From Sporomusa sphaeroides DSM 2875 (GTDB lineage Bacteria > Bacillota > Negativicutes > Sporomusales > Sporomusaceae), in the NCBI RefSeq assembly GCF_001941975.2, contig NZ_CP146991.1:1055501-1119500 (forward strand): a stretch of 64,000 nt of DNA. Reading direction: 5' to 3'. A program made the translations under genes and the position numbers. Numbering within the stretch: the first letter of the stretch is position 1; every line of letters begins with the position of its first letter. Of this stretch, positions 36,285 to 64,000 are shown in pieces. The notes beneath the pieces are model-generated. The model did not search any database, was not told the DNA's origin, and saw only the letters and a list, made by a program, of their open reading frames with translations.

Positions 36285-36317
36285 TCTCCTTCCGTTTAAA
36301 CGTCGGCGGGGAACCGG

Positions 36318-37406: not shown

Positions 37407-37412
37407 AAATAA

Positions 37413-38090: not shown

Positions 38091-38103
38091 AAAATGTACC
38101 TCC

Positions 38104-41941: not shown

Positions 41942-42113
41942 AAGTTGTACCTCCTTTTTTTGGTCTAACAGCAGTTATCAGTTTTGTGCGCCGGCACCAG
42001 ACCCGTCATACCACGCTGCGCCGCTGGCGCTTACCGTCCGCTTATGCATAACGGCCGCCCGCGCCTCAGCAATGTTGGCAGCGGCAAGAACCGCACCAGC
42101 GGGTCAGGCCGGG

Positions 42114-42175
42114 CAAAATAAAAGAAGGCCAAAAGAAACGCTGGTTTCTTTTGGCCTTCAGTATGTCTGATCAGC
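42114..42175 (-). promoter_or_regulatory. Hairpin-terminator leader motif, copy A
   Basis: Minus strand: GC-UGA-UCAG-ACAUA-CUGA-AGGCC, then a ~15-bp stem (AAGGCCAAAAGAAA with TTTCTTTTGGCCTT) and U-rich TTTTATTTT. It lies in the 5' leader of the methyltransferase operon at 41941. The ~170 bases between it and the ATG are GC-rich with no other recognised signal. Confidence 0.8.
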
Positions 42176-42199
42176 CGGTGCAATTCATGTATTGTGGCA

Positions 42200-42229
42200 A
42201 TTATATGATGAAAAGTAAAATAGTGTCAA
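42200..42229 (-). promoter_or_regulatory. Sigma-A promoter for leader A
   Basis: Minus strand TTGACA-N18-TATAAT. The start point would be ~25 bases before the leader hairpin. Confidence 0.85.
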
Positions 42230-42270
42230 GGTTAATTTTATAAAAAAATCAATTAATTTCCTTTTAGGCA

Positions 42271-42300
42271 TTGACACCTATTTAGGCGGTATGCTAATAT
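42271..42300 (+). promoter_or_regulatory. Sigma-A promoter for leaders B and C
   Basis: TTGACA-N18-TAATAT with an extended TGC before the -10. Divergent to the promoter at 42200. Confidence 0.85.
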
Positions 42301-42329
42301 GAGCCTAATATTTGAGTGGTATTCATGCG

Positions 42330-42390
42330 CTGACCGGAACACCGGAGGCAATCGTTAGCTGTTTAACCAGCTTAGGATTGCCTCTTTTTG
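42330..42390 (+). promoter_or_regulatory. Hairpin-terminator leader motif, copy B
   Basis: UGA-CCGG-AACA-CCGG-AGGC, then terminator GAGGCAATC...GATTGCCTC-TTTTT with an inner GCTG/CAGC stem. First of two tandem copies before the nitrogenase-like operon. Confidence 0.8.
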
Positions 42391-42437
42391 TTTTTGAACG
42401 GTTCGTTATGAAAGCCAATTCAATAGGCGCGCAATTG

Positions 42438-42507
42438 CTGACTGGGAGCAGCCGGAGGCAACCGATTTTCCGCTTGTAGCGAAATAGGTTGTCTCTTTAA
42501 TTTTTTT
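42438..42507 (+). promoter_or_regulatory. Hairpin-terminator leader motif, copy C
   Basis: UGA-CUGG-GAGCAG-CCGG-AGGC, then GAGGCAACC...GGTTGTCTC and a broken U run. Second tandem copy; its U tract runs straight into the ribosome site of the DUF2325 gene. Confidence 0.8.
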
Positions 42508-42522
42508 GAAGGAGATGAGAAT

Positions 42523-42807
42523 ATGACGGCTTTGGTTATTGGCGCAGATTATTTGGGTGGCATGGAACAAAAAATGCGGGATATGGGAATAACTGAAATC
42601 GCTCATATTACCGGACGAAACCCCGGAGAGGTAAAACGAATGCATATACCCAAAGCAGCGGCTTTCGTCCTGGTTTTTACCGACTATATCAATCACAATA
42701 TGGCCAAGGTGGTTAAAAGTCATGCTAAAGCTCAGTCCGTTCCGCTGGTCTATGCCAAACGGTCCTGGTCGGCTGTTGAACACAAGCTGGTCGGGCTTGG
42801 GCTATAA
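42523..42807 (+). CDS. DUF2325 family protein
   Basis: 94 residues (MTALVIGADYLGGMEQKMRDMGITEIAHITGR...; FTDYINHNMAKVV; YAKRSWSAVEHKL), a complete DUF2325 domain with a Rossmann-like start. Function of the family is unknown. It opens the nitrogenase-like/corrinoid operon and lies 15 bases before the NifD-like gene. GAAGGAGATGAG precedes ATG. Confidence 0.85.
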   Translation: MTALVIGADYLGGMEQKMRDMGITEIAHITGRNPGEVKRMHIPKAAAFVLVFTDYINHNMAKVVKSHAKAQSVPLVYAKRSWSAVEHKLVGLGL

Positions 42808-42822
42808 GGGAGAGGTGAAACA

Positions 42823-44310
42823 ATGAGTCATTTTGCATTAAAGGAGCCGCCGCGCCGGGAAGACAGACTGAATGCCTGCATTGCCCACGGGGCGACACTT
42901 GGCGAAGTCGCCGGCCGGCGGCAGCGCTGCTGTTTGCCTGCCAGTGAGCGCAGTTTTACCCAAAACTCCATTTGCCTGCTATTGCCGGCCCTGGGTACTA
43001 TGAACAGTATACCAAACAGTGTGGTGCTGATGCATGGCGGCCTGGGCTGCGGCTCTTCCTGCCATGGCGGCAATGCCGCCGTACGTGGTGGCAATATGCA
43101 GCGCTGGGGTGTGGTAAAAGATGGTACGTGGCTGTCTACCGGTTTGACCGAAGCCGATGTTATCAGCGGCGGCGAACCCAAGCTGGCTGAGGCTATTGTT
43201 GAGGCCGACAGGCGGTATCGGCCTGCGGTTATTTTTGTGGTATCCAGTTGTGTCCCAGGCATTATCGGTGATGATGTGGACGGCGTAGTGGAACAGACGC
43301 AGCCTGAGGTCAAGGCCAAACTATTGCCGGTACACTGTGAGGGTTTCAAAACTAAAATCTGGGCTACCGCTTATGATGCCGTATACCATGCCATTGGCCG
43401 GACACTGCTGCCTGAAACCAAGGCAGAAATTGCGCCAGGAAAGCCGGGCAAGACGGTCAACCTGATGAATATGTCTTCCATGGGGCGGGTAGATGAACTT
43501 GAGCTGGAGCGTTTGCTAAAGGCCTTAGGACTGGCGGTTAACATTTTCCCCGTTTTTGCTGACCCCGCCGGTATGCAGCGTATGGCTGAAGCCGATTTAT
43601 CCATTAGTACTTGTCCAACACATGACGACTATATGCTTAACCATTTAAAAGAAAAGTATCAGGTGCCGTTCATTCTTAAACATATGCCGATAGGCATTGA
43701 TAATACCGGTAAATGGCTGCAGGATGTGGCCGGTTTTTTTGGCCTTGGTCCGGAGGCGAAGGAACTGATTGCGCAAGAAGAAGCAGAACTTGCAGCAGCG
43801 CTCAAACCGCTCAAGCCAATGTTTGCCGGCAAGAAGGCGTTTAGCAGTGCCGGCGAGTTTCGAGCTCTTTCCACCGCGCTGCTGCTCGCTGAGCTGGGTT
43901 TTGAGGTCGTGGGTATCCGGGCTTTTCACCATGATGAATTTGCCGAGGTAGAATACGAGAAGCTGGTGCGGTTAACCGGGCAGGAGTATCCGTTAAACAT
44001 TGCCAATTGCCAGCCTTTTGAGGAAGCCAATCTGTTACGCAAAATACAGCCTGATATCTTTCTCGGGCATATGAACGGCAACAGTACGGCGGCTAAACTG
44101 GGCATTCCCACCCATGTCATTTATAATACCGGTTTGCATTATGTTGGCTACCGGGGAGCCTATGAACTGGCCAGACGGTTATACCGTCAATTGAAAAACC
44201 CCCGTTTTAACGCCAATCTCAGCCGTTATACCAGTTTGCCTTACCAGGAATCCTGGTACCGGCAAAATCCCTTTAAATATATTGTAACGGCAGGTGGTGA
44301 CAGCGAATGA
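42823..44310 (+). CDS. Nitrogenase component 1-like protein, NifD-type subunit
   Basis: 495 residues of the oxidoreductase/nitrogenase component 1 family. Cys51, Cys76 (HGGLGCGSSC) and Cys143 (VVSSCVPGIIGDD) are spaced 25 and 67, close to the P-cluster ligands of NifD (Cys62/88/154). Cys264 (STCPTHDDYM..HLKEKY) is 121 residues after Cys143, the same distance as from NifD Cys154 to the FeMo-cofactor ligand Cys275, and its flank aligns with NifD. The His442 region is only loosely kept (THVIYNTGLHYVGYRGAYELARR). So both a P-like cluster and a cofactor-like site are plausible. It is not true NifD; the substrate is unknown. It overlaps the next gene by 4 bases. Confidence 0.85.
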   Translation: MSHFALKEPPRREDRLNACIAHGATLGEVAGRRQRCCLPASERSFTQNSICLLLPALGTMNSIPNSVVLMHGGLGCGSSCHGGNAAVRGGNMQRWGVVKDGTWLSTGLTEADVISGGEPKLAEAIVEADRRYRPAVIFVVSSCVPGIIGDDVDGVVEQTQPEVKAKLLPVHCEGFKTKIWATAYDAVYHAIGRTLLPETKAEIAPGKPGKTVNLMNMSSMGRVDELELERLLKALGLAVNIFPVFADPAGMQRMAEADLSISTCPTHDDYMLNHLKEKYQVPFILKHMPIGIDNTGKWLQDVAGFFGLGPEAKELIAQEEAELAAALKPLKPMFAGKKAFSSAGEFRALSTALLLAELGFEVVGIRAFHHDEFAEVEYEKLVRLTGQEYPLNIANCQPFEEANLLRKIQPDIFLGHMNGNSTAAKLGIPTHVIYNTGLHYVGYRGAYELARRLYRQLKNPRFNANLSRYTSLPYQESWYRQNPFKYIVTAGGDSE

Positions 44311-45659
44311 GCGACTACAATTTTATTGAGCGGCCTCGTTATACCTGCGCTCTGGGCGGTGCTATCGCTGCCGTGAGCGCTTTGCCCAAGGCGGTGCCGA
44401 TATTGCATGCGCCGCCAGGCTGTGCCGGCAATTTTGCCTGGACGCAGGCAGGAGGAGCAGGCCTGCAGGTTGGTGGCTATTGCGGCGGACTGAGTATCCC
44501 CGGCTCTAATATTCAGGAACGCGAGGTTGTCTTTGGCGGAGCGGAACGGCTGGCAGAAGAGGTCAGACATACCCTGGAGCTTATGCGGGGCGATTTGTAT
44601 GTTATTTTGACCAGTTGTGTCACTGAGGTCATCGGCGACGATATTGGTTCGGTAGTCAGGCCTCTGCAGGAGCAAAGTGTTCCTATTTTCTTTGCTGAAA
44701 CCGGCGGATTTCGCGGCAATTCCTACCAGGGCTATGATTTGGTGCTGCAGAGCTTATTCAAAGACTTTGTCGTGAAAACCGGGAAAAAACAGCCGCGATC
44801 AGTAAATTTGTGGGGAATTACCCCGTTTATCGATGTTTTCTGGCGCGGCAATATCGAAAACATTCGCCGGCTGCTGGAAAAGCTGGAACTGACGGTAAAC
44901 AGCTTTTTTACAGTAGATGACAGTGTAGACGGAATCCGCGCAGCTGGCGGCGCAGCCTTGAATATCGTGGTGTCGGAGGTTTTTGGCTTAGGTGCTGCCC
45001 GGCTGGCGCAGGAGGTCCATGATACCCCTTATTTGTCCACGCCGCTGCCGGTAGGGCCTGCGGCTACCAATGAATTTTTGCGGCAGGTAGGAGAGGCGTT
45101 GGACTTAGACCCGGCACTGGTGGAAGAGGTTATCCAATATGAAAATAAACGCTATTACAGCTTATTGGAACCACTTGCCGATTGTTTTAATGATCTGGAT
45201 TTACAGCGGTATGCCGTTATTATTGGCGATACCAATTATGCGGTGGCGCTCACCCGCTTCCTGGGCGACGATTTGGGCTGGTTGCCGGAAGTTGTCGGTA
45301 TCACAGATATTTTGGATGAAGAACAACAAGCGAGCATTACCGGCCGGTTGAGCAAGCTGGACAGCGGTTTGTCCCCGAACTTGATTTTTCATACCGATGG
45401 CAGCGCTATTGCCGCAGCGGTGCGCGAGCATTGGGCCGGGAGTCAGTCTCAGGCCGGCAAATATGCCAATCCCCTCAATCCGTCCTTTGTTATTGGCAGC
45501 GCCCTTGACCGGGAATTAGCCAGGGAACTGGGAGCCGGGCATCTGAGCGTAAGTTTTCCGGTGGCTAACCGGGCGGTTATCGGCAGGGGATATACCGGGT
45601 ATAATGGTGGTTTAACTCTTATTGAGGATTTAATCAGCACAATTATTGCCGGCAGGTAA
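44307..45659 (+). CDS. Nitrogenase component 1-like protein, NifK-type subunit
   Basis: 450 residues, partner of the NifD-like protein. Cys14, Cys39 (HAPPGCAGNF) and Cys104 (LTSCVTEVIGDD) occupy the NifK P-cluster ligand positions (first spacing 25, as in NifK Cys70/95). GDTNYAV and the C-terminal VSFPVANRAVIGRGYTGYNGGLTLIEDL match the component 1 fold. No NifH-type reductase is encoded in the window, so the electron donor must be elsewhere or one of the ASKHA activases (inference). Confidence 0.85.
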   Translation: MSDYNFIERPRYTCALGGAIAAVSALPKAVPILHAPPGCAGNFAWTQAGGAGLQVGGYCGGLSIPGSNIQEREVVFGGAERLAEEVRHTLELMRGDLYVILTSCVTEVIGDDIGSVVRPLQEQSVPIFFAETGGFRGNSYQGYDLVLQSLFKDFVVKTGKKQPRSVNLWGITPFIDVFWRGNIENIRRLLEKLELTVNSFFTVDDSVDGIRAAGGAALNIVVSEVFGLGAARLAQEVHDTPYLSTPLPVGPAATNEFLRQVGEALDLDPALVEEVIQYENKRYYSLLEPLADCFNDLDLQRYAVIIGDTNYAVALTRFLGDDLGWLPEVVGITDILDEEQQASITGRLSKLDSGLSPNLIFHTDGSAIAAAVREHWAGSQSQAGKYANPLNPSFVIGSALDRELARELGAGHLSVSFPVANRAVIGRGYTGYNGGLTLIEDLISTIIAGR

Positions 45660-45685
45660 TGATGTGGGAGGAGATGAGGGGAACT

Positions 45686-46768
45686 ATGTTGCCTAAGGAC
45701 AGAATCCTCTATGCGTTACAGGTTAAAAGCAGTGCACCGTCTGAGCAGCCAGTGCTGCCGGCAGCACTTCTGTCCGGCGGAACCTGGGCATTCAGACAAA
45801 AGGGTCTGACATTGCAGGAAGTGCTTGAAAAGCCGGAGCTGGGTGTATCCGCCATTATTACCATTAACCAATGCATTCAGTCTGACATTGTTTGGCCAGG
45901 GTCCGGCTACCATAACCTGCTTGCGCATATCTTTGGCGGCAGAATTAAATTCCGGCCGCAGGGAAATATTGATGTGATTGAGCCGGCGTTTGCCAAAGTC
46001 ACGGAGGCATACCGGCTTGACTTGAGCCGCATCGACAGTCATGAGTGGATTTGCGCTATCCGCACGATAATTTCGCAGGTTAACAGACAAATCGGTAATT
46101 CTGTGCTGGTCGGAACTTCCGGTTGGGGGCCGTTCACGCTGGCTGGGCAGTTTTACGGCGTAGAAAAGCTAATGTCAGGTTTATATAAAGACAAAGCAGG
46201 TACACATGCCTTGCTTGAAGTCATGACAGCGGTTTGCATTGCCTACCTGGCGCCGGCTATTGACCGGGGAGCCGGCATAGTATCGGTTGCTGAACCCACT
46301 GCATCAGGAGACCTTATTTCACTCAGCCATTTTGAAGAGTTCGCCGCCCCGTACATTAAGAAGGTTAACGAAGAATTGAAGAACAGGGGAGCGTATACCG
46401 CTTTGCATATTTGCGGCAATATTAAAGACCGTGTAAGTCTGGCGCCTCTGATGGGTGTTGATGTATTATCTGTTGACTATAAGGTGGATTTGGCGCTGGC
46501 ACAACAGCGGCTGGCAGGACAAACGGCGTTAGCCGGCAACGTAAATCCTCTGCTGCTTAAAGACGGCTCAGCGGCTGAAGTGGTGCAGGCCGCTAAACAA
46601 TGCATTCAGCAAGCCGGCCGGGGAGCTAACTATATTCTCATGCCCGGATGTGATATTCCGCCCGGCGTTCCCTTAGTTAATGCAGTGGCATTTTTAGGTG
46701 CCGGCCGGGGAGAGGAAGACACTTCGCGCGTGGAATTAAGTAATGTTAAATATCATAGGAGGGCTTGA
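45686..46768 (+). CDS. MtaA-type methyltransferase (uroporphyrinogen decarboxylase fold), copy 3
   Basis: 360 residues from ATG 45686 (GAGGGG upstream; in-frame starts at 45659 and 45674 are alternatives). UroD-fold methyltransferase with zinc motif HICGN and MPGCDIPPGVP. It lies between the NifK-like gene and the corrinoid-protein gene, one base before the latter. It probably exchanges a methyl group with that corrinoid protein. This proximity joins the nitrogenase-like pair and methyl transfer in one operon. Confidence 0.9.
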   Translation: MLPKDRILYALQVKSSAPSEQPVLPAALLSGGTWAFRQKGLTLQEVLEKPELGVSAIITINQCIQSDIVWPGSGYHNLLAHIFGGRIKFRPQGNIDVIEPAFAKVTEAYRLDLSRIDSHEWICAIRTIISQVNRQIGNSVLVGTSGWGPFTLAGQFYGVEKLMSGLYKDKAGTHALLEVMTAVCIAYLAPAIDRGAGIVSVAEPTASGDLISLSHFEEFAAPYIKKVNEELKNRGAYTALHICGNIKDRVSLAPLMGVDVLSVDYKVDLALAQQRLAGQTALAGNVNPLLLKDGSAAEVVQAAKQCIQQAGRGANYILMPGCDIPPGVPLVNAVAFLGAGRGEEDTSRVELSNVKYHRRA

Positions 46769-46769
46769 A

Positions 46770-47426
46770 ATGGCGGCAAATAAGGAAGACCTATTCAGAA
46801 AACTATCAGATGCTGTTGTGGATATGGATGAGAATTTGGCGGTAAGTGTGGCACAGGAGATTATCGCAGAGAAATTTGATGCCTATGAAGCTGTTGAAAA
46901 AGGTCTGTCAAACGGGATGGACCGGGCGGGAGTACTATTTGAGGAAGAGGAGTACTTTATCCCTGAATTGCTGCTATGCTCTGATGCCATGTATGCCGGA
47001 CTTGATGTGCTCAAAGGACATATCAAAGTTGCCGGGCAAGGTGAGAAACGAAAAATAGTTATAGGGGTGGTAGAAGGTGATACCCATGACATCGGCAAGA
47101 ACCTGGTAAAAATCATGCTGGAGACATCAGGCTTCGAAGTCTATGACCTGGGCAGAGATATTGCGCCGCTGGCTTTCGTGGAAAAGGCCAAAGAAGTGAA
47201 TGCCGACATTATTGCCATGGCAACACTCATGACCACTACCATGGAGGGAATGGCCGCAGTTGTCGAGATTCTGCAGGCTCAGAACCTTAAAGACAGCTAT
47301 AAAGTCATTGTTGGCGGTGGACCCATTTCACAGAGCTTTGCCGATAAAATCGGGGCCGATGGCTATGCTGTTAACGCCGCCGACGCGGTAAGACTTTCCC
47401 GGCGGCTTTTGGGAATGGCCGGGTAA
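46770..47426 (+). CDS. Methyltransferase cognate corrinoid protein (MtbC/MttC type)
   Basis: 218 residues. N-terminal helical cap domain (~1-85) and C-terminal cobalamin-binding Rossmann domain with the base-off/His-on motif GDTHDIGKNLV (His ~105), plus GGGPISQSFADKIGADGYA. It carries the methyl group on cobalt between methyltransferases. AGGAGGG lies six bases before ATG 46770. It is the only corrinoid protein in the window, so it should serve the methyltransferases on both strands and the RACE protein at 38104. Confidence 0.94.
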   Translation: MAANKEDLFRKLSDAVVDMDENLAVSVAQEIIAEKFDAYEAVEKGLSNGMDRAGVLFEEEEYFIPELLLCSDAMYAGLDVLKGHIKVAGQGEKRKIVIGVVEGDTHDIGKNLVKIMLETSGFEVYDLGRDIAPLAFVEKAKEVNADIIAMATLMTTTMEGMAAVVEILQAQNLKDSYKVIVGGGPISQSFADKIGADGYAVNAADAVRLSRRLLGMAG

Positions 47427-54272: not shown

Positions 54273-54638
54273 ATGGCCAAAGTAGCGGTTGCCAGTACCG
54301 ATGGGGTAAGCATCAATGAGCATTTTGGCAGGGCAAAAGAGTTTTGGATTTATGAGGTAAATGAGCAAGGAACATACCATTTGCTTGAACGCCGGGAGGT
54401 TTTGCCGGCAATACAAACTGATCATAAGCATACTGCCGGTTATGCTGTTGAGCTGCTTGCCGATATTGAGGCGGTACTCATCGCCCGCATTGGCCCGCAG
54501 GCCGAAGTGGAACTGCTGGCAAAAGGAGTGTTTGCTTTGGAAATTACCGGGCCGGTTGATAAAGCATTGGTATCGTATGGTAAAAGAGGCAAGTATATTC
54601 GCAGCAAGCTTGTCCGCAGCCCGGTTGAAGGCAGTTAA
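54273..54638 (+). CDS. NifX/NafY-like iron-molybdenum-cofactor-binding domain protein
   Basis: 121 residues of the dinitrogenase iron-molybdenum cofactor biosynthesis (NifX/NifB C-terminal) family: KVAVASTDGVSINEHFGRAKEFWIYEV and DIEAVLIARIGPQAEVELLAKGVFALE. These small proteins bind or carry metal clusters. In this window it may serve the NifD/K-like proteins at 42823-45659, with which it shares the leader motif. AGGTGATAAAAC precedes ATG. Confidence 0.88.
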   Translation: MAKVAVASTDGVSINEHFGRAKEFWIYEVNEQGTYHLLERREVLPAIQTDHKHTAGYAVELLADIEAVLIARIGPQAEVELLAKGVFALEITGPVDKALVSYGKRGKYIRSKLVRSPVEGS

Positions 54639-54671: not shown

Positions 54672-55874
54672 ATGTATATGTCTCATCTGGAATGCCCTAA
54701 ATGTAGCGCTAAACATGATCCCCATAAAATTACTCAGTTGTGCCCTGAATGCGGCGCACCGCTATTAGTTAGATATGATTTAAACAAGGTAAAAGCGAAT
54801 TTGAAAAAAGAAGACTTAGTCAGCCGTAAGCCGGATTTATGGCGGTATCGTGAATTGCTGCCGCTTGTTGACGATAAGTATAAAGTGACTCTCGGTGAGG
54901 GAATGACCCCGCTGCTTGCGCTTGATAAGCTGGGCAACAAGCTGGGCGTTGAACTCTATTTGAAAGATGAGGGTATTATCCCCAGCGGCACCTTCAAATC
55001 ACGCGGTGCAGCAGTAGGTGTTTCAAGGGCCAAAGAATTGGGAGTAAAATCTCTGGCGATGCCGACAAATGGCAATGCCGGCGCTTCCTGGGCAATCTAT
55101 TCGGCAAAGGCGGATATTGATGCGTATATCGTTATGCCGGTGGATGCCCCTGCGATTACCCGCAATGAATGTGCAATTGCCGGTGCCAAGTTATATTTAG
55201 TAAACGGATTAATCAGTGATGCCGGTAAAATTGTCGGCCGGGCTGTGGCGAAATTAGGCTGTATGGATGCTTCCACCCTGAAAGAACCGTATCGTATTGA
55301 GGGCAAAAAGACCATGGGCCTGGAGATTGCCGAGCAGCTAAACTGGGAAGTGCCTGACGTTATCTTGTACCCAACCGGTGGCGGTGTTGGTCTGATTGGC
55401 ATCTATAAAGCCTTCCGCGAATTGCAGCAGCTTGGCTGGATTGGCGACAAAATGCCCCGGATGGTGGCTGTTCAGGCAGAGGGTTGTGCGCCTATCGTTA
55501 AAGCCTGGGAAGAGAAAAAGACGGCATCCGAATTCTGGAACAACGCGTCAACCGTTGCTTTCGGTATTACAGTACCCAAAGCCCTGGGGGATTTTCTGGT
55601 TCTTGACGCCATCTATCAGACCAACGGCTGTGCTGTTGCGGTTACTGATGAAGCCATACTCAAAGATCAGGCCGAATTGGCAGCGGCGGAAGGGGCGTTT
55701 GTTTGCCCGGAAGGTGCGGCAAACTATACCGCCGCAAAAAAGCTGCGTGAGAGCGGCTGGATTAAACCTGGTGAGAAGGTGGTTCTGCTCAATACCGGTG
55801 CCGGTTTGAAGTATCCTGATACCGTTCAGGTGGCTGTGCCTGTGCTTGAGCCGGAGCAAGACATTCCAGTATGA
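54672..55874 (+). CDS. Threonine synthase-like PLP enzyme
   Basis: 400 residues. N-terminal zinc-ribbon (LECPKCSAKH...LCPECGAPLL), then a fold-type II PLP domain with Lys in GTFKSRGAA and the glycine-rich PTGGGVGLIG. It looks like thrC (O-phosphohomoserine to threonine). Close relatives make cysteate from phosphoserine, so location in this island leaves another phospho-amino-acid beta-replacement possible. It lies 33 bases after the NifX-like gene, under leader G. Confidence 0.82.
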   Translation: MYMSHLECPKCSAKHDPHKITQLCPECGAPLLVRYDLNKVKANLKKEDLVSRKPDLWRYRELLPLVDDKYKVTLGEGMTPLLALDKLGNKLGVELYLKDEGIIPSGTFKSRGAAVGVSRAKELGVKSLAMPTNGNAGASWAIYSAKADIDAYIVMPVDAPAITRNECAIAGAKLYLVNGLISDAGKIVGRAVAKLGCMDASTLKEPYRIEGKKTMGLEIAEQLNWEVPDVILYPTGGGVGLIGIYKAFRELQQLGWIGDKMPRMVAVQAEGCAPIVKAWEEKKTASEFWNNASTVAFGITVPKALGDFLVLDAIYQTNGCAVAVTDEAILKDQAELAAAEGAFVCPEGAANYTAAKKLRESGWIKPGEKVVLLNTGAGLKYPDTVQVAVPVLEPEQDIPV

Positions 55875-55930: not shown

Positions 55931-55959
55931 TTGACACAGCTGGAACAATATGTTAGTAT
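55931..55959 (+). promoter_or_regulatory. Sigma-A promoter for leaders H and I
   Basis: TTGACA-N17-TAGTAT, ~50 bases before leader H. The stretch between contains CTCC...GGAG inverted repeat. Confidence 0.75.
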
Positions 55960-56010
55960 TGGTTCCACAGATATGGCACTCCTCGTTTCTGGAGCCATTA
56001 TAAGTTTGGC

Positions 56011-56070
56011 GCTGATCAGATAGCAAACTGAAGGCCAAAGTTCATAACATGAACTTTGGCCTTTTATATT
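56011..56070 (+). promoter_or_regulatory. Hairpin-terminator leader motif, copy H
   Basis: GC-UGA-UCAG-AUAGCAAA-CUGA-AGGCC, then AAGGCCAAAGTTCAT with ATGAACTTTGGCCTT and TTATATTT. Confidence 0.82.
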
Positions 56071-56163
56071 TCAGCAAAGAGGCGGGTAACCGAATGCCTG
56101 ATAGCATTAGGCTGGCAAATCCGGTATGGGGTTGACAATAGTATAAGGAAACACATGGATAAG

Positions 56164-56215
56164 TTGACCGGTTAATAAGCTGGAGACGCACATACGCGTT
56201 TTCAGCTTTTTATTT
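56164..56215 (+). promoter_or_regulatory. Hairpin-terminator leader motif, copy I
   Basis: UGA-CCGG-UUAAUAAG-CUGG-AGAC. The terminator AAGCTGGAGACGC pairs perfectly with GCGTTTTCAGCTT and includes the CUGG strand, so the two structures exclude each other. A TTGACA at 56132 has only a poor -10. Copies H and I fill most of the 397-base gap before the permease gene. Confidence 0.8.
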
Positions 56216-56271
56216 ATGCTATTGCTATAGCAAATAGCAGGTAAAGTTCATTTTAAGGAGGTGTGGTTTAG

Positions 56272-57129
56272 ATGATTGAATATGTAGTCAGTAATTTCCG
56301 CAGAGCGTATCGGGCTAAATGGGAGGCGAAGCCCAAGCCAGGCCGGTTTTCCAGAATACCGCTTGCGCCAGTAGTAAATATATTGGAAAAAACCATTGGT
56401 ATTATCCTGGTGGTGCTTATCTGGGAACTTACCCCTCGCCTGGAACTTATTGATCCATTTCTTCTGCCGCCCTTTAGTGAGGTAATCCATAGTTTGTTTA
56501 ATTTAGTTATGACCGGAGAAATCTTTAAACATTTTTCCATTAGTATTACCCGCTCGGCTGCCGGTTTTTTTATTGGCATCGGGATAGCCATTCCCCTGGG
56601 AATTTTCATGGGATGGTATACCAAGCTGGAGGAAGTGGTAGATCCTTTGGTGCAGGCTTGCCGTAATTCTTCTGTATTGGCTCTATATCCGGTCTTTTTA
56701 TTGCTCTTTGGCATTGGGGAGGTTTCTAAAATGGCCATTATTATCTGGGGAACCATTTGGCCGTCTCTGCTTAATACTATTTCCGGCGTAAAAAATACCG
56801 ATCCGCTTTTGATCAAGGCAGCCCGTTCTATGGGCGTATCTAAGCTGACGCTGCTATATAAGGTAATTGCACCGGCAGCGCTGCCCTCAATATTAACCGG
56901 TGTCAGACTGAGTGCGGCCAGTTCGATTTTAGTATTGGTGGCCGCCGAAATGATTGGCGCTAATGCAGGCCTGGGATTCATGATTTTTTACTTTGAAGAA
57001 CGGTATGCGGTACCCGAGATGTATGCGGGTATCATTACCATGTCGCTTTTCGGTGTTACCGTCAATTATTTGCTGGTCGCCTTAGAGAAACGCCTGACAG
57101 GCTGGAAAGAAAAAGTGGCTAATGAATGA
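56272..57129 (+). CDS. ABC transporter permease, nitrate/sulfonate type, 1
   Basis: 285 residues, ~6 TM helices, EAA loop VKNTDPLLIKAARSMGVSKLTLLYKVIAPAALPSILTG. First gene of the 2-hydroxyacyl-CoA-dehydratase-like operon, behind tandem leaders H and I. Paralogous to the next permease (56-60% by eye). AAGGAGGTGTGG precedes ATG. Confidence 0.92.
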   Translation: MIEYVVSNFRRAYRAKWEAKPKPGRFSRIPLAPVVNILEKTIGIILVVLIWELTPRLELIDPFLLPPFSEVIHSLFNLVMTGEIFKHFSISITRSAAGFFIGIGIAIPLGIFMGWYTKLEEVVDPLVQACRNSSVLALYPVFLLLFGIGEVSKMAIIIWGTIWPSLLNTISGVKNTDPLLIKAARSMGVSKLTLLYKVIAPAALPSILTGVRLSAASSILVLVAAEMIGANAGLGFMIFYFEERYAVPEMYAGIITMSLFGVTVNYLLVALEKRLTGWKEKVANE

Positions 57130-57227
57130 GGCTGGCTGCAACCTGTCAGCGCTTTTGGCAGACAGGTGGTGTGTTGGCGAAAGCGCAAGTTAAGCCAGCG
57201 GTTGCAGAGAAAAAAGGAGGTGAAATC

Positions 57228-58010
57228 GTGGTAAATGCATACCGGGAAAAAGGGTGGAAAATCCTGAAAAGGGTAATTGCTATTGGCTTTATTGTTGCGA
57301 TATGGCAGGTATTGCCATCAACAGGAGTGATTGATCCCCGCAGCTTACCCGCCTTTAGTGCTGTTATTCAAGGACTGCTGGAACTTATCTTGTCAGGTGA
57401 ATTGCTTACCCATGCGCTGGCAAGTTTTCAACGTTCGCTTATGGGATTTTTTGTGGCAGTTAGCCTGGCCATTCCGCTGGGGATTTTTATGGGATGGTTT
57501 AAACGGGTAGAAAAAATTGTCGACCCGTTGATGCAAATCTGCCGGAATACGGCGACACTGGCGTTGTATCCAGTATTTATCCTGGTTTTTGGATTAGGCG
57601 AAGTATCTAAAATCGGCATTATATTTTGGGGCTCTATCTGGCCGATTTTGATTAATACCATCGAGGGAGTTAAAACCGTTGACCCTTTGCTGGTAAAGGC
57701 GGCACGCTCCATGGCTATGTCCCGGCTGGGTTTGTTTATTCATGTTATATTACCGGCAGCCGTACCGTCCATTCTTACCGGACTCAGAATTAGCGCCACC
57801 CGCTCGCTCATTATATTAGTGGCGGCAGAAATGCTGGGTGCCAGCGCCGGACTGGGTTTTTTAATCTTTGATGCCCAGCACAAATATCAGCCGGAAAAAA
57901 TGTATGCCGGCATTTTGGTACTAATGATGCTGGGGATGTCGGTCAACTATCTGATTGTAACCCTGGAAAGCTATCTTACCCGCTGGAAAGGCACGGCGGA
58001 AACTGCCTAA
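57228..58010 (+). CDS. ABC transporter permease, nitrate/sulfonate type, 2
   Basis: 260 residues from GTG 57228, chosen because AAAAAGGAGGTGA lies five bases upstream and the protein then begins at the usual family position. A longer frame from ATG 57126 overlaps the previous stop and cannot be ruled out. EAA loop VKTVDPLLVKAARSMAMSRLGLFIHVILPAAVPSILTG. Two unlike permeases suggest a heterodimeric channel. No ATPase gene lies in this operon within the window. Confidence 0.9.
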   Translation: MVNAYREKGWKILKRVIAIGFIVAIWQVLPSTGVIDPRSLPAFSAVIQGLLELILSGELLTHALASFQRSLMGFFVAVSLAIPLGIFMGWFKRVEKIVDPLMQICRNTATLALYPVFILVFGLGEVSKIGIIFWGSIWPILINTIEGVKTVDPLLVKAARSMAMSRLGLFIHVILPAAVPSILTGLRISATRSLIILVAAEMLGASAGLGFLIFDAQHKYQPEKMYAGILVLMMLGMSVNYLIVTLESYLTRWKGTAETA

Positions 58011-58067
58011 TGGCGGAGAAATGCCGGCCTTGGACAGCAAACCAATCAAACGAAGGAGCGAATACCT

Positions 58068-60116
58068 ATGAAAATAGAGGAAGTAATTGATCAAACCCTA
58101 ATTCCTGCTATTACCGGAGCCACGGTGGTGGGAATCGATATTGGCTCAAGGACAGGTAAAGCGGTATTATTCACCGGCGGTGAATTATTTACTGCCCAAA
58201 CCCCCACCGGCATCGACATGCAGGAAACCTCGGATGAACTATTGGCAGAATTGCTGGAGGTATCCGGCCTGAAACGGGCGGATATCAGCTATATCGTCGG
58301 TACCGGCTATGGCCGGGTAGCTATGCATTTCCCGGAAATACCCCACCAGATTGTGACCGAAATTTCCTGCCATGCCATGGGAGCGCATTACCTTAATGCC
58401 GGGATTAAAACCATTATTGATATTGGCGGCCAGGACTCCAAGGGCATTAAAGTCGATCCAGAAACAGGCCGGGTGGTAGAATTCGTCATGAACGACAAAT
58501 GTGCCGCCGGTACCGGCCGCTTCCTGGAAAAAGTAGCTCAGCTCTTAGACCTGGATTTAAGTGAGCTGGGAAAGGTTGCACTTGAAGCCACTAAGCCGTC
58601 AGAAATCAGCAGCCAGTGCGTGGTGTTTGCCGAATCGGAAGTAATCTCGCTCAGAGCCAAAGGCGCTACGCAGGAAGACATTGCCGCCGGTATTCACCTG
58701 GCTACCGCCCGGCGGGTGCGCAACCTGTTAAGCCGTATCGGACTTGAACCGGGGCTGGCTTTCTCCGGTGGTGTTTCTAACAATGTCGGCATGAAAAAAG
58801 CCATTGAAGATCTGCTGGAACATCCTATCAGCGAATTTAAACTGGACGCCATATATGCCGGTGCCCTGGGGGCCGCTGTACATGCGCAGCATTATCTGGC
58901 GGCAGGAGGGCGCGACAGCCAGGAAAGCGGCAGTGGTTTTTCGCTGGAGCTGACTGAACTGGAAAACCGGATAGCCAAGCAGCAGGAGACCATTATTACC
59001 GGTGCCGACGGGAAAAAGAAAGTGGGTTATCTGTGCACTTATACACCGCTGGAACTCATTAATGCGGCTGGTGTGAATCAAGTAAGACTGTTTAAGATGG
59101 GCAACACCGAAGTGGTTGCCAGTGGCGAGCAAATCACCCAAAGCGTATTCTGCGATTTCACCAAGAGCATTCTGGGAGCATTCAAAGAAGGGGATCCTTT
59201 ATATAAATCCCTGGATAAAGTGTATACCTTCTATACCTGCGACTGCATAAAGAAGGTAGGCGAAGCCATCGGGGACTTCTTTACACCGGCCGATATCTAC
59301 ATCCTGCCCCGCCTGCGGCATAAAGAGTCCTCGCGGGGATATTACCGGACTGAGATTTTAAATTTCAAGGAAGACCTGGAAAAACTGTCCGGCCATACCA
59401 TAACCGAGGAAGAAGTGCGGGAACAAATTAAAATCTATAACCAAGTACGGGCGGTATTAAAGCAAATTTCGGATTTGCGCAAACGGGATAACCCGCCGCT
59501 CAAAGGCAAGGATTTCCTGGATCTGATTAAAGCCTATTACTACTTACCGCCTGAAGAACTGCTGATTTTGTACCAGGAGCTGTATGACACCCTGTCTGCC
59601 GTGCCTGACCAAGGGGCGAAACCCATCAGGCTGATGATGGCGGGGGGGATTGTAGCCGACGGCGACCGGCGCCTCCTGGAACTCATCGAAGATACTGTAG
59701 GGGCCAGGGTAGTCATCGAAGACCATTGCACCGGCTCCCGCAATGTAAGTTTCCAGATTAGCGAGGCAGGGGACCCCTATCAGGCCTTAGCCGAAGGGTA
59801 TCTGGACCAATCACCTTGCACCCGGATGAAACCGCTGCAGGAAAGGGTTATCATTTCCGGTGATTTGGCACAGGAGTATAAGGCAGACGGGATTCTGTAT
59901 GTGTATCTCAAATTCTGCCCGTGCTATGGTCAGATCAAGCATGAGTTTTTCCGGCATTATCAAAAACTCGGCATACCGGTTTTGGAAGTGCCGATAGACT
60001 ATTCGGCCAGTGATCAGGGACAGCTCAAAACCAGACTGGAAGCCTTTATCGAGGTGTTGGGCGAAAGAGGAGGCGTTACCACCGGGGCAGGACGGAAAAA
60101 TTTCCAGTCGGCGTAA
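58068..60116 (+). CDS. Fused ASKHA activase / 2-hydroxyacyl-CoA-dehydratase-like protein
   Basis: 682 residues. Residues ~1-275 form a CoA-dehydratase activase (ASKHA ATPase): GIDIGSRTGKAVLF, DIGGQDSKGI, and [4Fe-4S] ligands Cys145 (NDKCAAGTGRF) and Cys184 (SSQCVVFAESEV), 39 apart as in HgdC. Residues ~310-680 resemble the HgdB/BcrC dehydratase-type subunit, with cluster-type cysteines in YLCTYTPLELI, VFCDFTKS, YTCDCIKK, DHCTGSRN and KFCPCYGQI. Joining ATP-driven reductase and acceptor in one chain is unusual. It probably delivers low-potential electrons to the proteins at 62127 and 63376. Confidence 0.85.
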   Translation: MKIEEVIDQTLIPAITGATVVGIDIGSRTGKAVLFTGGELFTAQTPTGIDMQETSDELLAELLEVSGLKRADISYIVGTGYGRVAMHFPEIPHQIVTEISCHAMGAHYLNAGIKTIIDIGGQDSKGIKVDPETGRVVEFVMNDKCAAGTGRFLEKVAQLLDLDLSELGKVALEATKPSEISSQCVVFAESEVISLRAKGATQEDIAAGIHLATARRVRNLLSRIGLEPGLAFSGGVSNNVGMKKAIEDLLEHPISEFKLDAIYAGALGAAVHAQHYLAAGGRDSQESGSGFSLELTELENRIAKQQETIITGADGKKKVGYLCTYTPLELINAAGVNQVRLFKMGNTEVVASGEQITQSVFCDFTKSILGAFKEGDPLYKSLDKVYTFYTCDCIKKVGEAIGDFFTPADIYILPRLRHKESSRGYYRTEILNFKEDLEKLSGHTITEEEVREQIKIYNQVRAVLKQISDLRKRDNPPLKGKDFLDLIKAYYYLPPEELLILYQELYDTLSAVPDQGAKPIRLMMAGGIVADGDRRLLELIEDTVGARVVIEDHCTGSRNVSFQISEAGDPYQALAEGYLDQSPCTRMKPLQERVIISGDLAQEYKADGILYVYLKFCPCYGQIKHEFFRHYQKLGIPVLEVPIDYSASDQGQLKTRLEAFIEVLGERGGVTTGAGRKNFQSA

Positions 60117-60149
60117 GGATAATGCCGGAAATAGAAGGAGTGAACAAAA

Positions 60150-61031
60150 ATGACAAAAATAGTGGATGTTATTGATAAAAAACTGGTTTCTACTTTTACC
60201 AATGATGTAGTTATTGGTATGGACATTGGTTCCCGTACCGGCAAAGCCGTCTTGCTTGCTGAAGGCAAGCTGTACACCGCCATTACACCAACTGCTGTAT
60301 TTACCCAGCAAACTGCCGACAAACTGTTTGCTGTCCTACTGAAACAGACCGGCTTGAAACATTCGGATATTCAGTATATTGTCGGTACGGGGTATGGCCG
60401 GATATCGCTTAATTTTGGTGATATTCCCAACAAAATTGTGACAGAAATCTCTTGCCATGCCATGGGGGCTCATGTGCTCAATGCCAATGTAAGGTCTATT
60501 GTCGACATTGGCGGACAAGACTCAAAGGCGATTCGGGTAGACCCCAAAAACGGCAAAGTAGTGGAGTTCATTATGAATGACAAATGTGCCGCCGGTACCG
60601 GACGGTTTTTGGAAAAAGTAGCCCAGTTGCTGGATCTGACAACAGAAGAATTGGGGCATGAAGCGCTCAAAGCCACCAAACCGTCAGATATCAGCAGCCA
60701 GTGTGTAGTATTTGCCGAATCGGAAGTTATCTCGCTGAAAGCCAAAGGCGAAAAGCGGGCCGATATTGCCGCCGGTATTCATATTGCCACCGCCCGACGC
60801 ATTCGCAACCTATTTAACCGGATTGGGCTGGAGCCGGATTTAGTATTTACCGGCGGGGTATCCAATAATGCCGGCATGAAAAAGGCGGTAGAGGAAGTAT
60901 TAGGCCATGCCATTAGTGAAGTCAGGTTAGATACCATTTATGCCGGGGCGCTGGGCGGAGCCGTTATTGCGCAAAAAAATCTGGCACTGGCAAGTGCTGA
61001 AAAAGAAGAATTATCAGCTTCGGCCAGTTAA
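60150..61031 (+). CDS. Stand-alone ASKHA activase (HgdC/BadF/BadG type)
   Basis: 293 residues, strongly similar to the N-terminal half of the preceding fusion (GMDIGSRTGKAVLL, NDKCAAGTGRFLEKVAQLLDL, SSQCVVFAESEVISLKAKG). Homodimeric ATPase that places one [4Fe-4S] cluster between subunits and injects electrons into a dehydratase- or double-cubane-type partner. AGAAGGAGTG precedes ATG. The operon thus has two activases, perhaps for two different partners. Confidence 0.93.
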   Translation: MTKIVDVIDKKLVSTFTNDVVIGMDIGSRTGKAVLLAEGKLYTAITPTAVFTQQTADKLFAVLLKQTGLKHSDIQYIVGTGYGRISLNFGDIPNKIVTEISCHAMGAHVLNANVRSIVDIGGQDSKAIRVDPKNGKVVEFIMNDKCAAGTGRFLEKVAQLLDLTTEELGHEALKATKPSDISSQCVVFAESEVISLKAKGEKRADIAAGIHIATARRIRNLFNRIGLEPDLVFTGGVSNNAGMKKAVEEVLGHAISEVRLDTIYAGALGGAVIAQKNLALASAEKEELSASAS

Positions 61032-61068
61032 CAACAGCAGGCAAGCAAACACATATGGGGGCGTTGAA

Positions 61069-62088
61069 ATGAATACTCAGTTAAAAAGCAATCGGCAAAC
61101 AAGGATGATTATTACTATCGTACTTTTGGCACTGTCACTATCTGTGTTTGGCTGCTCGAACAAGCAGGAGACGCAACCGACCGCCGGCTCAGGTAAGCAG
61201 CCTGATATCATAAGAGTTCCCAGCCCCGGCGATATAACCCGGCCGGATATCTATATGATTGCGGAAGAACTAGGCTATTTTGCCGAAGAAGGCATTCAGC
61301 TTGAATACGTGGGGAAGGTACCGTCGCCACAGTTAGTTGCATCAGTAGTCGCCGGCAAGATTGATGTCGGTGCCGCGCATATTAACAGAACGATTGCCGG
61401 TATTTCGGCAGGTGCCAAGATCAAAGCCGTGGTAGCCGGCACCGAGACTACCCGGGAAATACCGCATATGGTGTATGTGACTTTAGACAATAGTCCGGTG
61501 AAAAGTGCTCAGGATATGGTAGGCAAAAAAGTCGGTATTCCCACCATTGGCGGCTGCAACGAGTACACCCCCTATGCCTATCTGAAACAAAACGGCATAG
61601 ACTCACCGAAAGGCAAGATTGAAGTCATTGTTATGCCGGAAGCAAATCTTGAGCAAGCCTTGCGGCAAGGTAACATTGATGTAGCCGGTTTTCACAAAAA
61701 CCCCGGTTTTTTATTAGCACGCGGCGGTCTCAAAGTACTGTTTACCGACTATGATGTTTTTGGCACAGTTGGCGGTAACACGCCTTTCTATTTCTCGGAA
61801 AAATTCATCAAAGAAAAACCTGATGTGGTCAGGCGTTTTGTCAAGGCGGTGGCTAAGGCCAATGACTGGGCTGACACCAATCAACAACAGGCTATTGATA
61901 TTACGGTAAAAAGAGCCAAGGTTGATCCCAAATTACTGCGCACCGGTTATTTTGCTCCTAAAGGTCTCATTCAACCGGAAACGGCCGGTATCTGGATTGA
62001 TTTATTGAAAGAATTCGGTGAAATAAAAAATGATGTGAAACCGGAGCAGATTTTTACCAACGAATTTAATCCATACGCCCAGAAATAG
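61069..62088 (+). CDS. ABC transporter substrate-binding lipoprotein, NMT1/SsuA type
   Basis: 339 residues from ATG 61069, with signal peptide and lipobox (LSLSVFGCSN). Binding domain RVPSPGDITRPDIYMIAEELGYFAEEGIQLEYVGKV. The usual ligand classes of the family are nitrate, sulfonates and small aromatic or thiamine-precursor compounds. Partner of the permeases at 56272 and 57228. Its presence inside the dehydratase-like operon implies that the imported compound is the reductase substrate. Confidence 0.9.
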   Translation: MNTQLKSNRQTRMIITIVLLALSLSVFGCSNKQETQPTAGSGKQPDIIRVPSPGDITRPDIYMIAEELGYFAEEGIQLEYVGKVPSPQLVASVVAGKIDVGAAHINRTIAGISAGAKIKAVVAGTETTREIPHMVYVTLDNSPVKSAQDMVGKKVGIPTIGGCNEYTPYAYLKQNGIDSPKGKIEVIVMPEANLEQALRQGNIDVAGFHKNPGFLLARGGLKVLFTDYDVFGTVGGNTPFYFSEKFIKEKPDVVRRFVKAVAKANDWADTNQQQAIDITVKRAKVDPKLLRTGYFAPKGLIQPETAGIWIDLLKEFGEIKNDVKPEQIFTNEFNPYAQK

Positions 62089-62126
62089 TTTTAACAACAG
62101 ATGCTTGGGAAAGCGAGGAATACATC

Positions 62127-63335
62127 ATGGATATTGAGGACATTCAAAGTCCAAGAGATTATCTCATCTACAGTAAAGAGGAAGTTCATCACTATTCACC
62201 GGCTATCGGCAAGCTGTTAGACTTGTCCACCTCTTATGTTTATGATGCCGAGAAGGCCTATGCGGAGGGAAAAATTAACGCCGTTTGGTCCCGGGCGAGC
62301 GGCTGGGAGATTCCGCTGGCCTATGCTTCCGATATTATTCCCGTGGCTTATAGTGAGATGGGCCGGTTAAGTGACCTGGAATCAGTCACAATTGCTGAAG
62401 ACTACTATCAGTTTCCACAAGAAACCTGCTCAATGGTAAAGTGCACGGTTGGTCAGTGGCACAAACGCCGTGGCACTGGTATCAAAAGGATTATTGGCGC
62501 CAGTGTGGCCTGCGAACCTTATAATCTGGCCTGGGAACTAATGAGAAAGGAGGACTATGATGTTCATGCCATTGATGTGGTTTACCGGGCCCCTGGCGTA
62601 AAAGGGGAGCGGCTGGAACAGTTAGTACAGTTCCTGATTGAACAAATTTACGAAACAGCCCAGTGGCTGACAGGCAGTAAAGAGATCAATGAAGACAAAT
62701 TAAAAATTGAGATTCTGCGCAAGAACCGCTTGATTGCCAAAGTCCGGAAAGTGCTGGAACTCAGGCTAAAACACCCTTATTATATGCGCAGCCTTCCTTC
62801 CATCTATCTGCTCACAGGCTTAAATACCTATTTTGGCAAACCGGCCGAATACGAGGCCGTGCTGGATGACTTGATCAGGGAACTGGAGACAGCGCCTGTT
62901 AATCAGCGCGACCTGGATAAAGTCATTCCCCTGGTTTGGGTCGGCAGTGCCGGACAGGAATTTGGCATTTATGAAGCCATTGATCAGGCCGGCGGTGCAT
63001 TGCTCGGTTTCCGGGGCTATCCTTTTAACAATTATGATGAAACATTGCCGCCGGTAGAGGCATTAGCCCGCCATGTGCTGGGAAATCAGGAAGCCGGAGC
63101 TTCCATTTATGTACAAAAAGTTATTGAACAGGAACTGAAAAAAGTGAAAGCCAGAGGGCTGGTTCTCTACGGTTATCTTGGCTGCTCTTATGGCAGTGTT
63201 GCCAGGGAAATGTGGCGGGACTATTTTCATAAAAAGGGCTTCCCTAGTATCAACATTGAAGGCACCTTCCAGGTAGGGCCACCTACAGGGCAAATTCTGA
63301 CAAGAATCAGAGCCTTCGTCGAAATGCTGGCCTAG
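62127..63335 (+). CDS. 2-hydroxyacyl-CoA dehydratase / double-cubane-cluster-protein-like subunit 1
   Basis: 402 residues of the HgdA/B-BcrB/C family (COG1775). Conserved cysteines in QETCSMVKCTVGQWH (~100 and 105), GASVACEPYNLAW (~129) and YLGCSYGSVAREMW near the C-terminus are suited to bind a [4Fe-4S] or [8Fe-9S] double-cubane cluster. With ASKHA activases adjacent it could be a dehydratase, an acyl-CoA reductase or a DCCP-type reductase of a small molecule. No CoA transferase or ligase lies nearby, which favours a non-CoA substrate. Confidence 0.83.
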   Translation: MDIEDIQSPRDYLIYSKEEVHHYSPAIGKLLDLSTSYVYDAEKAYAEGKINAVWSRASGWEIPLAYASDIIPVAYSEMGRLSDLESVTIAEDYYQFPQETCSMVKCTVGQWHKRRGTGIKRIIGASVACEPYNLAWELMRKEDYDVHAIDVVYRAPGVKGERLEQLVQFLIEQIYETAQWLTGSKEINEDKLKIEILRKNRLIAKVRKVLELRLKHPYYMRSLPSIYLLTGLNTYFGKPAEYEAVLDDLIRELETAPVNQRDLDKVIPLVWVGSAGQEFGIYEAIDQAGGALLGFRGYPFNNYDETLPPVEALARHVLGNQEAGASIYVQKVIEQELKKVKARGLVLYGYLGCSYGSVAREMWRDYFHKKGFPSINIEGTFQVGPPTGQILTRIRAFVEMLA

Positions 63336-63375
63336 ACGGGAAGATTATAAAATACCTTGATCAAGGAGGATGGTT

Positions 63376-64000
63376 GTGGAGATAGAAGACATTCAAAGCC
63401 AGCGTGAGTATGTTGATTATTGTAAAAAGGTGCATAGCTATTCGCCGGCTGTCAACAAGCTATTGGATCTGTCTGAGGCATATGTGCCTGATGCGGAAAA
63501 GGCGTACCGGGAGGGACGGAAGAAAGCCGTTTGGAGCAACGCCTATGGCTGGGAAGTACCGGTGATTTATGCCTGCGATACCATCCCGGTAGCCTTTAGT
63601 GAGATGGGGCGGTTGAGCGATAAAGAGGTTATGCTGATTGCTGAAGACTATTACCAGTTTCCGGCAGAAACCTGCTCTATGGTGAAATGTACGGTAGGGC
63701 AGTGGCATCTGCGGCGCAACACCAGTACCATCAACCGCATTCTCGGCAATAGCTCGGCCTGCGAACCCTACAATCTGGCCTGGGAGATCATGAAACGGGA
63801 AGGCTATGATGTGTATAACAATGACGTGGTCTACCGCGGACCTACGGTGGCAGGCAAACGTCTGGAGGATTTGGTGCAGTTTTTCATTGAGCAGATCTAT
63901 GATGTGGCCGAATGGCTTACCGGCAGCCGGAAAATTGACGAAGATAAGCTCAGATTTGAAATTCAGCGCAAAAATCGCCTGCTGAATAAGCTAAGGACGG
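63376..64000 (+). CDS. 2-hydroxyacyl-CoA dehydratase / double-cubane-cluster-protein-like subunit 2 (5' part)
   Basis: Starts at GTG 63376 (AAGGAGGATG upstream) and runs off the window after ~208 codons with no stop. Closely similar to the preceding protein (EIEDIQSQREYVDY; AETCSMVKCTVGQWHLRRN; NSSACEPYNLAWE), so it arose by tandem duplication. The pair may form a heterodimer, as in HgdA/HgdB. The incomplete 3' end is due to the window edge. Confidence 0.85.
   Translation, partial: MEIEDIQSQREYVDYCKKVHSYSPAVNKLLDLSEAYVPDAEKAYREGRKKAVWSNAYGWEVPVIYACDTIPVAFSEMGRLSDKEVMLIAEDYYQFPAETCSMVKCTVGQWHLRRNTSTINRILGNSSACEPYNLAWEIMKREGYDVYNNDVVYRGPTVAGKRLEDLVQFFIEQIYDVAEWLTGSRKIDEDKLRFEIQRKNRLLNKLRT

Follow-up and report, generated by a model that had tools for sequence, protein, structure and literature searches.

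Monooxygenases for organosulfur compounds need O2, and the ways in which strict anaerobes draw sulfur from such compounds, sulfonates among them, are to our knowledge largely open. The first nitrogenase-like answers are reportedly recent, Mar dating from 2020 and Isr from 2024. MarHDK cleaves C-S bonds (PMC12552129), and IsrBHDK is required for isethionate as sulfur source (PMC11423573). In class I benzoyl-CoA reductase, a double-cubane subunit serves as the electron store, and the substrate is reduced on a [4Fe-4S]-OH2 subunit (PMC11971306). Here we describe an operon at the end of a 64,000-nucleotide stretch (the window; contig C1, 1055501-1119500) of the 5.0-Mb genome of Sporomusa sphaeroides DSM 2875. 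It joins a NitT/TauT-type importer to an ASKHA activase fused to a double-cubane reductase domain, a rare type of ATP-powered iron-sulfur reductase, and to single-cluster proteins termed HgdX. The gene set suggests an undescribed oxygen-free route that takes sulfur from organic molecules. The gene architecture is well supported at the level of sequence, and a role in sulfur assimilation, read from gene context, is the account we favor, if with reserve. An operon of HGD/ASKHA proteins with nitrogenase-like genes was not found in the open literature (subscription papers not covered).

Organization and distribution of the operon

The genes lie on the + strand in the order perm1, perm2, ASKHA-double-cubane fusion, ASKHA, SBP1, HgdX1, HgdX2, SBP2, where SBP denotes a substrate-binding protein and ABC, below, ATP-binding cassette. 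Window coordinates are:

56272..57129, +, ABC permease 1 (perm1), NitT/TauT type; PF00528, 95 bits; TauC/SsuC/SaoP-like, below cut-offs
57126..58010, +, ABC permease 2 (perm2), NitT/TauT type; PF00528 (BPD_transp_1), 101 bits
58068..60116, +, ASKHA activase fused to a double-cubane-type HGD domain, 682 amino acids; PF01869 (BcrAD_BadFG) and PF06050 (HGD-D) in one frame
60150..61031, +, second, free ASKHA activase, 293 amino acids; PF01869, and TIGR00241 above cut-off
61072..62088, +, SBP1, substrate-binding lipoprotein of the SsuA/NMT1 family; PF09084, 106 bits; SsuA family, 98 bits (cut-off 163.5)
62127..63335, +, HgdX1, single-cluster HGD protein, 402 amino acids, proposed catalytic subunit; PF06050, 107 bits
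63370..64000, +, HgdX2, cut by the window end (about 405 amino acids in the genome); HGD-D, 67-68% identical to HgdX1

An earlier sequence-only reading of this DNA had listed two permeases, a binding lipoprotein, the 682-residue fusion, a second ASKHA protein and two tandem HgdA/B-like proteins; all are present on the + strand, and profiles confirmed their families. The mechanical reading frame of SBP1 opens at 60940, with its likely ATG at 61072. The free and fused ASKHA modules are 67% identical. Following the operon beyond 64 kb, as that reading had proposed (genome C1 about 1118870-1120088), we found that HgdX2 ends normally and is followed by SBP2, which is 63% identical to SBP1, and then by a GGDEF gene; no CoA transferase was encountered in this extension.

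A scan of about 85,000 species returned 21 loci, in Sporomusa, Pelosinus, Syntrophomonadaceae, Peptococcaceae, Pelotomaculum, and metagenome-assembled genomes (MAGs) of Deltaproteobacteria and Desulfuromonadales. Many of these MAGs are apparently from termite guts, judged by their record names. Synteny spans two phyla. In other genera the fusion is 75-91% identical and synteny is kept, which excludes a chance arrangement. Of 100 relatives, six genomes, counting DSM 2875, encode uninterrupted full-length fusions (seven genes), and HgdX is present in every one of these six. Weaker fusion homologues elsewhere (34-38% identity) are interrupted by stop codons and thus represent separate genes. Since full-length fusions are confined to HgdX-bearing genomes, the fusion looks diagnostic of this system.

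The clusters carry one to about six HgdX genes and one to five SBP genes, and the two numbers, counted from neighborhoods, are correlated (r 0.81 over 13 non-independent loci). HgdX paralogues within a cluster are 62-86% identical and share all invariant residues. Stand-alone HgdX+SBP pairs were present at three loci (L065, L075 and L076), and in two cases (G107, G105) the genome has its core on another contig. From these varied, correlated numbers and isolated pairs, each HgdX+SBP pair is probably a substrate-specific, exchangeable module on a common core.

Predicted cluster ligands and comparison with described reductases

In the fusion, residues 21-273 form the ASKHA activase (PF01869) and residues 323-664 the HGD domain (PF06050). 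The solved structures nearest to the fused HGD domain are those of DCCP, the double-cubane cluster protein, followed by BzdN. The [8Fe-9S] cluster of BzdN is held by C36, C73, C100, C263, C293 and C327 (PMC11971306). Their counterparts in the sequence alignment are C323, C362, C391, C554, C584 and C617, kept in 17 of 17 fusions, the pairing of BzdN C100 with C391 or C393 being set by alignment position. The fused domain would accordingly be of the double-cubane type, with [8Fe-9S] chemistry predicted, at a score of 237 bits to the double-cubane cluster protein model NF040772 (under its 350-bit cut-off).

The HgdX proteins match HGD-D, and no named subfamily fits them well. A search of the PDB with the HgdX family profile found DCCP (E 4e-16), HadC (4e-6) and MbdO (0.01). 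The AlphaFold2 (AF2) model of HgdX1 (predicted local distance difference test, pLDDT, 84.9; predicted template modeling score 0.88) has the HAD/BCR/DCCP fold over the whole chain, with Z 26-35 over 352-380 residues compared to 6.5 for the next unrelated family. C101, C106, C129, C353 and E77 are invariant in 42 of 42 HgdX sequences. C101, C129 and C353 correspond to the cysteines of the proximal [4Fe-4S] cluster, and the second-cubane cysteines are absent in the rows compared. E77 aligns to a Glu of MbdO, and by its position we take it for the counterpart of BzdO Glu65. HgdX forms a separate clade (support 100/99) in a tree from which BzdO, HadB, BcrB and three fusion rows are missing and in which a number of reference rows sit on long branches; of this tree we used the HgdX and fusion clades alone, not their deeper placement. 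HgdX proteins were also considered as double-cubane proteins; this was rejected on the absent second-cubane cysteines, and HgdX1 scores 53.5 bits to NF040772 (cut-off 350). The earlier description of the reductase as double-cubane-like therefore held for the fused domain but not for the tandem HgdX proteins. Since only the fused domain is of this kind, a division of labor like that of BzdN and BzdO is indicated.

The operon resembles class I benzoyl-CoA reductase (BzdNOPQ, MbdONPQ, BcrABCD) in having two ASKHA modules (here one fused and one free), a double-cubane subunit with, by sequence, the same six cysteines, and a putative three-cysteine [4Fe-4S] subunit of the same fold. It differs in that the activase is fused to the double-cubane domain, several catalytic-type subunits are present, and the neighbors are transporter, nitrogenase-like and cysteine synthase (CysK) genes rather than CoA genes. 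Of the catalytic-subunit signature (three Cys, Glu65, His131), HgdX has the three Cys and the Glu, but Y or F for the His and one extra Cys. Given the similar ligand set and gene set, HgdX would by analogy be the catalytic subunit, the fusion an activase plus electron store, and the free ASKHA a second activase.

DCCP/DCCP-R of Carboxydothermus hydrogenoformans contains the nearest solved sequence relative of both the fused HGD domain and HgdX, and is likewise driven by ATP through an ASKHA protein. However, DCCP forms a homodimer, has its activase as a separate protein and lacks a single-cluster partner. Elsewhere in the DSM 2875 genome (C1 about 996-999 kb; L001:473-3318), a separate DCCP-like protein and its activase stand directly behind an ABC permease that looks, by eye, to be of the phosphonate (PhnE) type, making another transport-linked double-cubane locus.

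The (R)-2-hydroxyisocaproyl-CoA dehydratase HadBC/HadI shares the HgdX fold (Z 35 to HadC) and the activase family, but here no CoA-transferase gene is near and the partner subunit has different cluster ligands. A genome-wide search of DSM 2875 found no CoA transferase or ligase within 150 kb; the nearest AMP-binding gene is about 195 kb away, the nearest CoA_transf_3 gene more than 270 kb and the nearest CoA_trans gene more than 900 kb. The cut-offs of curated subunit models were not reached (bzdN, 95 of 453.8 bits; bcrC, 85 of 421; bzdQ, 201 of 380; HadC, 112 of 700). A CoA-dependent dehydratase was rejected on these profile scores, the lack of CoA genes nearby, and the separate HgdX clade. 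The sequence-only reading had named grouping with acyl-CoA dehydratases plus a downstream CoA-transferase gene as evidence against itself, and that combination was not found. Its central proposal, an ASKHA-driven double-cubane-type reductase linked to an importer, with CoA-activation genes lacking, is supported. Its picture was incomplete in lacking the nitrogenase-like genes, cysteine synthase, the nifH-nifB-ATPase partners and the multi-copy HgdX+SBP modules, most of which lie outside the window.

Nitrogenase-like genes, probable shared ATPase and leader

Of 13 informative clusters, ranging from Sporomusa to Deltaproteobacteria, 10 have nitrogenase-like D/K genes of the Mar (methylthio-alkane-reductase) type, here Nfl D/K, within the operon or next to it (KB1, G006, G045, G009 locus 1, L062, L063, L070, L071, L073 and L078); the linkage is looser in two, and the genes are absent nearby in one. 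Informative clusters are those bearing the fusion with enough flank, four others being truncated and left out. One of the looser cases, G061, has its Nfl genes on a second contig with perm1-perm2-HgdX. By chance, an estimated 3% or so of random 20-kb stretches of the DSM 2875 genome would overlap one of its six PF00148 loci. Only adjacency was used, because a PF00148 gene is present in 77 of 100 relatives, which makes co-occurrence at the genome level uninformative.

The gene order of the operon in L070 and L071 is ATPase, perm1, perm2, fusion, HgdX(n), ASKHA, SBP(n), NflK, NflD, CysK. Sporomusa sp. KB1 and G006 have one NflD-NflK pair between perm1 and perm2 and another downstream, with CysK after it; KB1 also has a nitroreductase-like gene and MetY there. 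In six genomes or loci (KB1, G006, G061, L070, L071 and L078), CysK is the immediate neighbor of Nfl D/K. At L054, KB1 has a nitrogenase-like hot spot, where several more Nfl D and K genes, about 31-35% identical to the operon-borne ones, are lined up with CysK and MetY.

The best solved relative of Nfl D is 9fmg/9d9u chain A (218 bits; next 124), identified as MarD from the Cys270- and His429-like residues in the alignment, as described for MarD. Nfl D keeps three P-cluster-type cysteines (C50, C75 and C143) and the [Fe8S9C] ligands C270 and H423 in all sequences covering them; these large-cluster Cys/His ligands are not kept in IsrD. The locus thus resembles MarBHDK in the P-cluster and [Fe8S9C] ligands of its Nfl D/K and in the sulfur-assimilation genes nearby, but no Mar operon with an ASKHA/HGD reductase and multiple SBPs was among the descriptions compared. 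With IsrBHDK and its Ssu importer it shares a nitrogenase-like enzyme and a sulfonate-type ABC importer, probably likewise for anaerobic sulfur assimilation, but Isr is without the HGD/ASKHA reductase.

The DSM 2875 operon has no ABC ATPase gene inside it. About 35 kb downstream, at 1151.5-1155.8 kb of C1, is a nifH-nifB-cysK-ATPase cluster whose ATPase (about 1154.9-1155.8 kb) is 61-69% identical to ATPases inside homologous operons, compared to 38-51% for the other DSM 2875 ATPases tested. This difference makes the downstream ATPase the likely cognate one and explains an operon without its own. The ATPase gene thus appears to be common to the transporter and to a cluster of cysteine-synthase and nitrogenase-cofactor genes. 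Just past the ATPase, a SAM riboswitch (L103:9159-9256, minus strand) precedes a gene of the cystathionine gamma-lyase/synthase (transsulfuration) family. The region is:

L103:2533-9256 (genome about 1151.5-1158.3 kb), nifH-nifB-cysK-ATPase region including the SAM riboswitch

Upstream of perm1 is a leader that is conserved in the same place in relatives:

55931..56220, +, leader with a promoter-like site and two terminator-like hairpins, a conserved motif before each

The promoter-like TTGACA is at 55931, with TAGTAT 17 bases on; motif 1 is at about 56012-56036 and motif 2 at 56163-56188. The segment 55962-56068 has a fold z of -5.0. The motifs are nearly single-copy per genome, a reversed-pattern control gave no matches, and a search of Rfam with the leader found no known family or riboswitch. 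Motif 1 with its terminator also precedes a MetY/MetB-like gene and SBP genes (L112, which is G008:C105:33793, L118 and L120). It is possibly an undescribed sulfur-responsive attenuator. In a congener without the HgdX cluster (L106; G008:C105:55556), an orphan motif 2 is retained next to the permease-like gene found at the edge of the KB1 cluster, making loss of the cluster, as by deletion, probable.

Other observations concern the flanks. Directly upstream of the leader is a threonine-synthase-family gene (54672-55874; PRK08197, 655 bits, cut-off 303). A NifX-like protein of the dinitrogenase iron-molybdenum cofactor family (PF02579) is encoded at 54273-54638, 2 kb upstream of the operon, and a relative of it (36% identity) adjoins the G061 cluster. 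The window also holds, at 35475-47426, a second nitrogenase-like D/K pair (42823-44310 and 44307-45659) surrounded by a Tau/Sao-type ATPase, an SBP, DUF1847, a RACo-like activator, MtaA/UroD-like methyltransferases and a corrinoid protein. That cluster resembles type I mlp gene clusters (PMC10418091).

Proposed mechanism and competing explanations

We propose an ATP-driven, two-stage iron-sulfur reductase that helps anaerobic sulfur uptake from imported organic compounds, and consider this somewhat probable. The SBPs and the permease pair would import small organosulfur anions, energized by the ATPase encoded behind nifH-nifB-cysK. The two ASKHA activases would hydrolyze ATP and push low-potential electrons into the predicted [8Fe-9S] double cubane, a step modeled on the supposed action of the activase pair on BzdN. 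The double cubane may then pass electrons to HgdX, whose three-cysteine cluster, as in BzdO and HadB, would reduce or activate the substrate, each HgdX+SBP pair presumably serving its own substrate on the shared core. A Mar-type Nfl D/K would belong to this pathway too, where it probably cleaves C-S bonds; CysK, joined in one genome by MetY, would capture sulfide or thiol. The partnership with Nfl D/K, cysteine synthase and nifH-nifB-ATPase points to sulfur assimilation. The precedents of Mar and Isr, nitrogenase-like enzymes with C-S cleavage and, for Isr, sulfonate-type transporters, support this reading, and motif 1 before SBP and MetY/MetB-like genes counts for it.

Several results weigh on the other side. 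In DSM 2875 itself, the Nfl pairs lie outside the operon, at distances of 13 and 16 kb, and at G009 locus 2 (L047) no Nfl gene is near the cluster. The relatives include many incomplete MAGs, which are not independent of one another. As a housekeeping gene, CysK may simply respond to sulfur. SBP scores are under the sulfonate-family cut-offs, so that profiles do not assign the ligand. In HgdX, the position of BzdO His131 is Y or F, and C106, the additional invariant cysteine, might fill the cluster's open site. The AF2 model of the fusion (pLDDT 52) was not used.

The same reductase could instead serve a sulfur-free substrate, such as a nitrogen, phosphorus or small unsaturated compound, with Nfl, CysK and HGD genes sharing only a low-potential or nutrient-stress regulon. 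NitT/TauT importers take many different ligands, and the resemblance of these SBPs to SsuA is only distant. Acetylene, azide and hydrazine are among the compounds reduced by DCCP (cited in PMC11971306), and the L047 cluster without Nfl fits this explanation as well. However, the six genomes or loci with CysK next to Nfl D/K, the nifH-nifB-cysK-ATPase cluster in DSM 2875, MetY in KB1 and the Mar-type ligands of Nfl argue against it. We regard this explanation as rather unlikely, though a serious candidate.

Alternatively, the ASKHA/double-cubane core could be an electron donor to Nfl D/K, replacing or assisting NifH, with the HgdX proteins as adaptor or carrier subunits and not catalysts. The tight operon linkage, the operon-borne Nfl D/K pairs without an adjacent NifH gene, and an HgdX cluster closed by the extra cysteine would agree with this. 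Yet a NifH gene is near by in DSM 2875 (1151.5 kb), known nitrogenase-like enzymes use NifH homologues, and the benzoyl-CoA reductase architecture already supplies the double cubane with a partner; isolated HgdX+SBP pairs without Nfl nearby (L065 and L076) fit a substrate-facing role. This explanation is improbable. Least probable, and very much so, is an ordinary 2-hydroxyacyl-CoA dehydratase or aryl-CoA reductase standing beside a transporter by accident, which has the same fold and activase families in its favor but conflicts with the HadC, BzdN and BcrC scores, the 150 kb without a CoA transferase or ligase, and an HgdX clade that is separate and multi-copy beside SBP genes.

We return to the two-stage reductase for sulfur uptake. 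A bolder version of it, which we put forward as doubtful, is that the ASKHA/double-cubane/HgdX reductase and Nfl D/K form one pathway or complex, with two unrelated ATP-driven electron injectors in series or with ASKHA feeding Nfl directly, stripping sulfur from several imported compounds that each have their own SBP and HgdX.

The system is found in acetogens and in Deltaproteobacterial MAGs, the latter apparently of termite-gut origin. If the proposed role is true, a second class of ATP-driven reductase would be added to anaerobic organosulfur chemistry, and double-cubane proteins would gain a physiological role besides aryl-CoA reduction. The question would also be directly testable, as the ligand of each SBP should show what the HgdX paired with it acts on.

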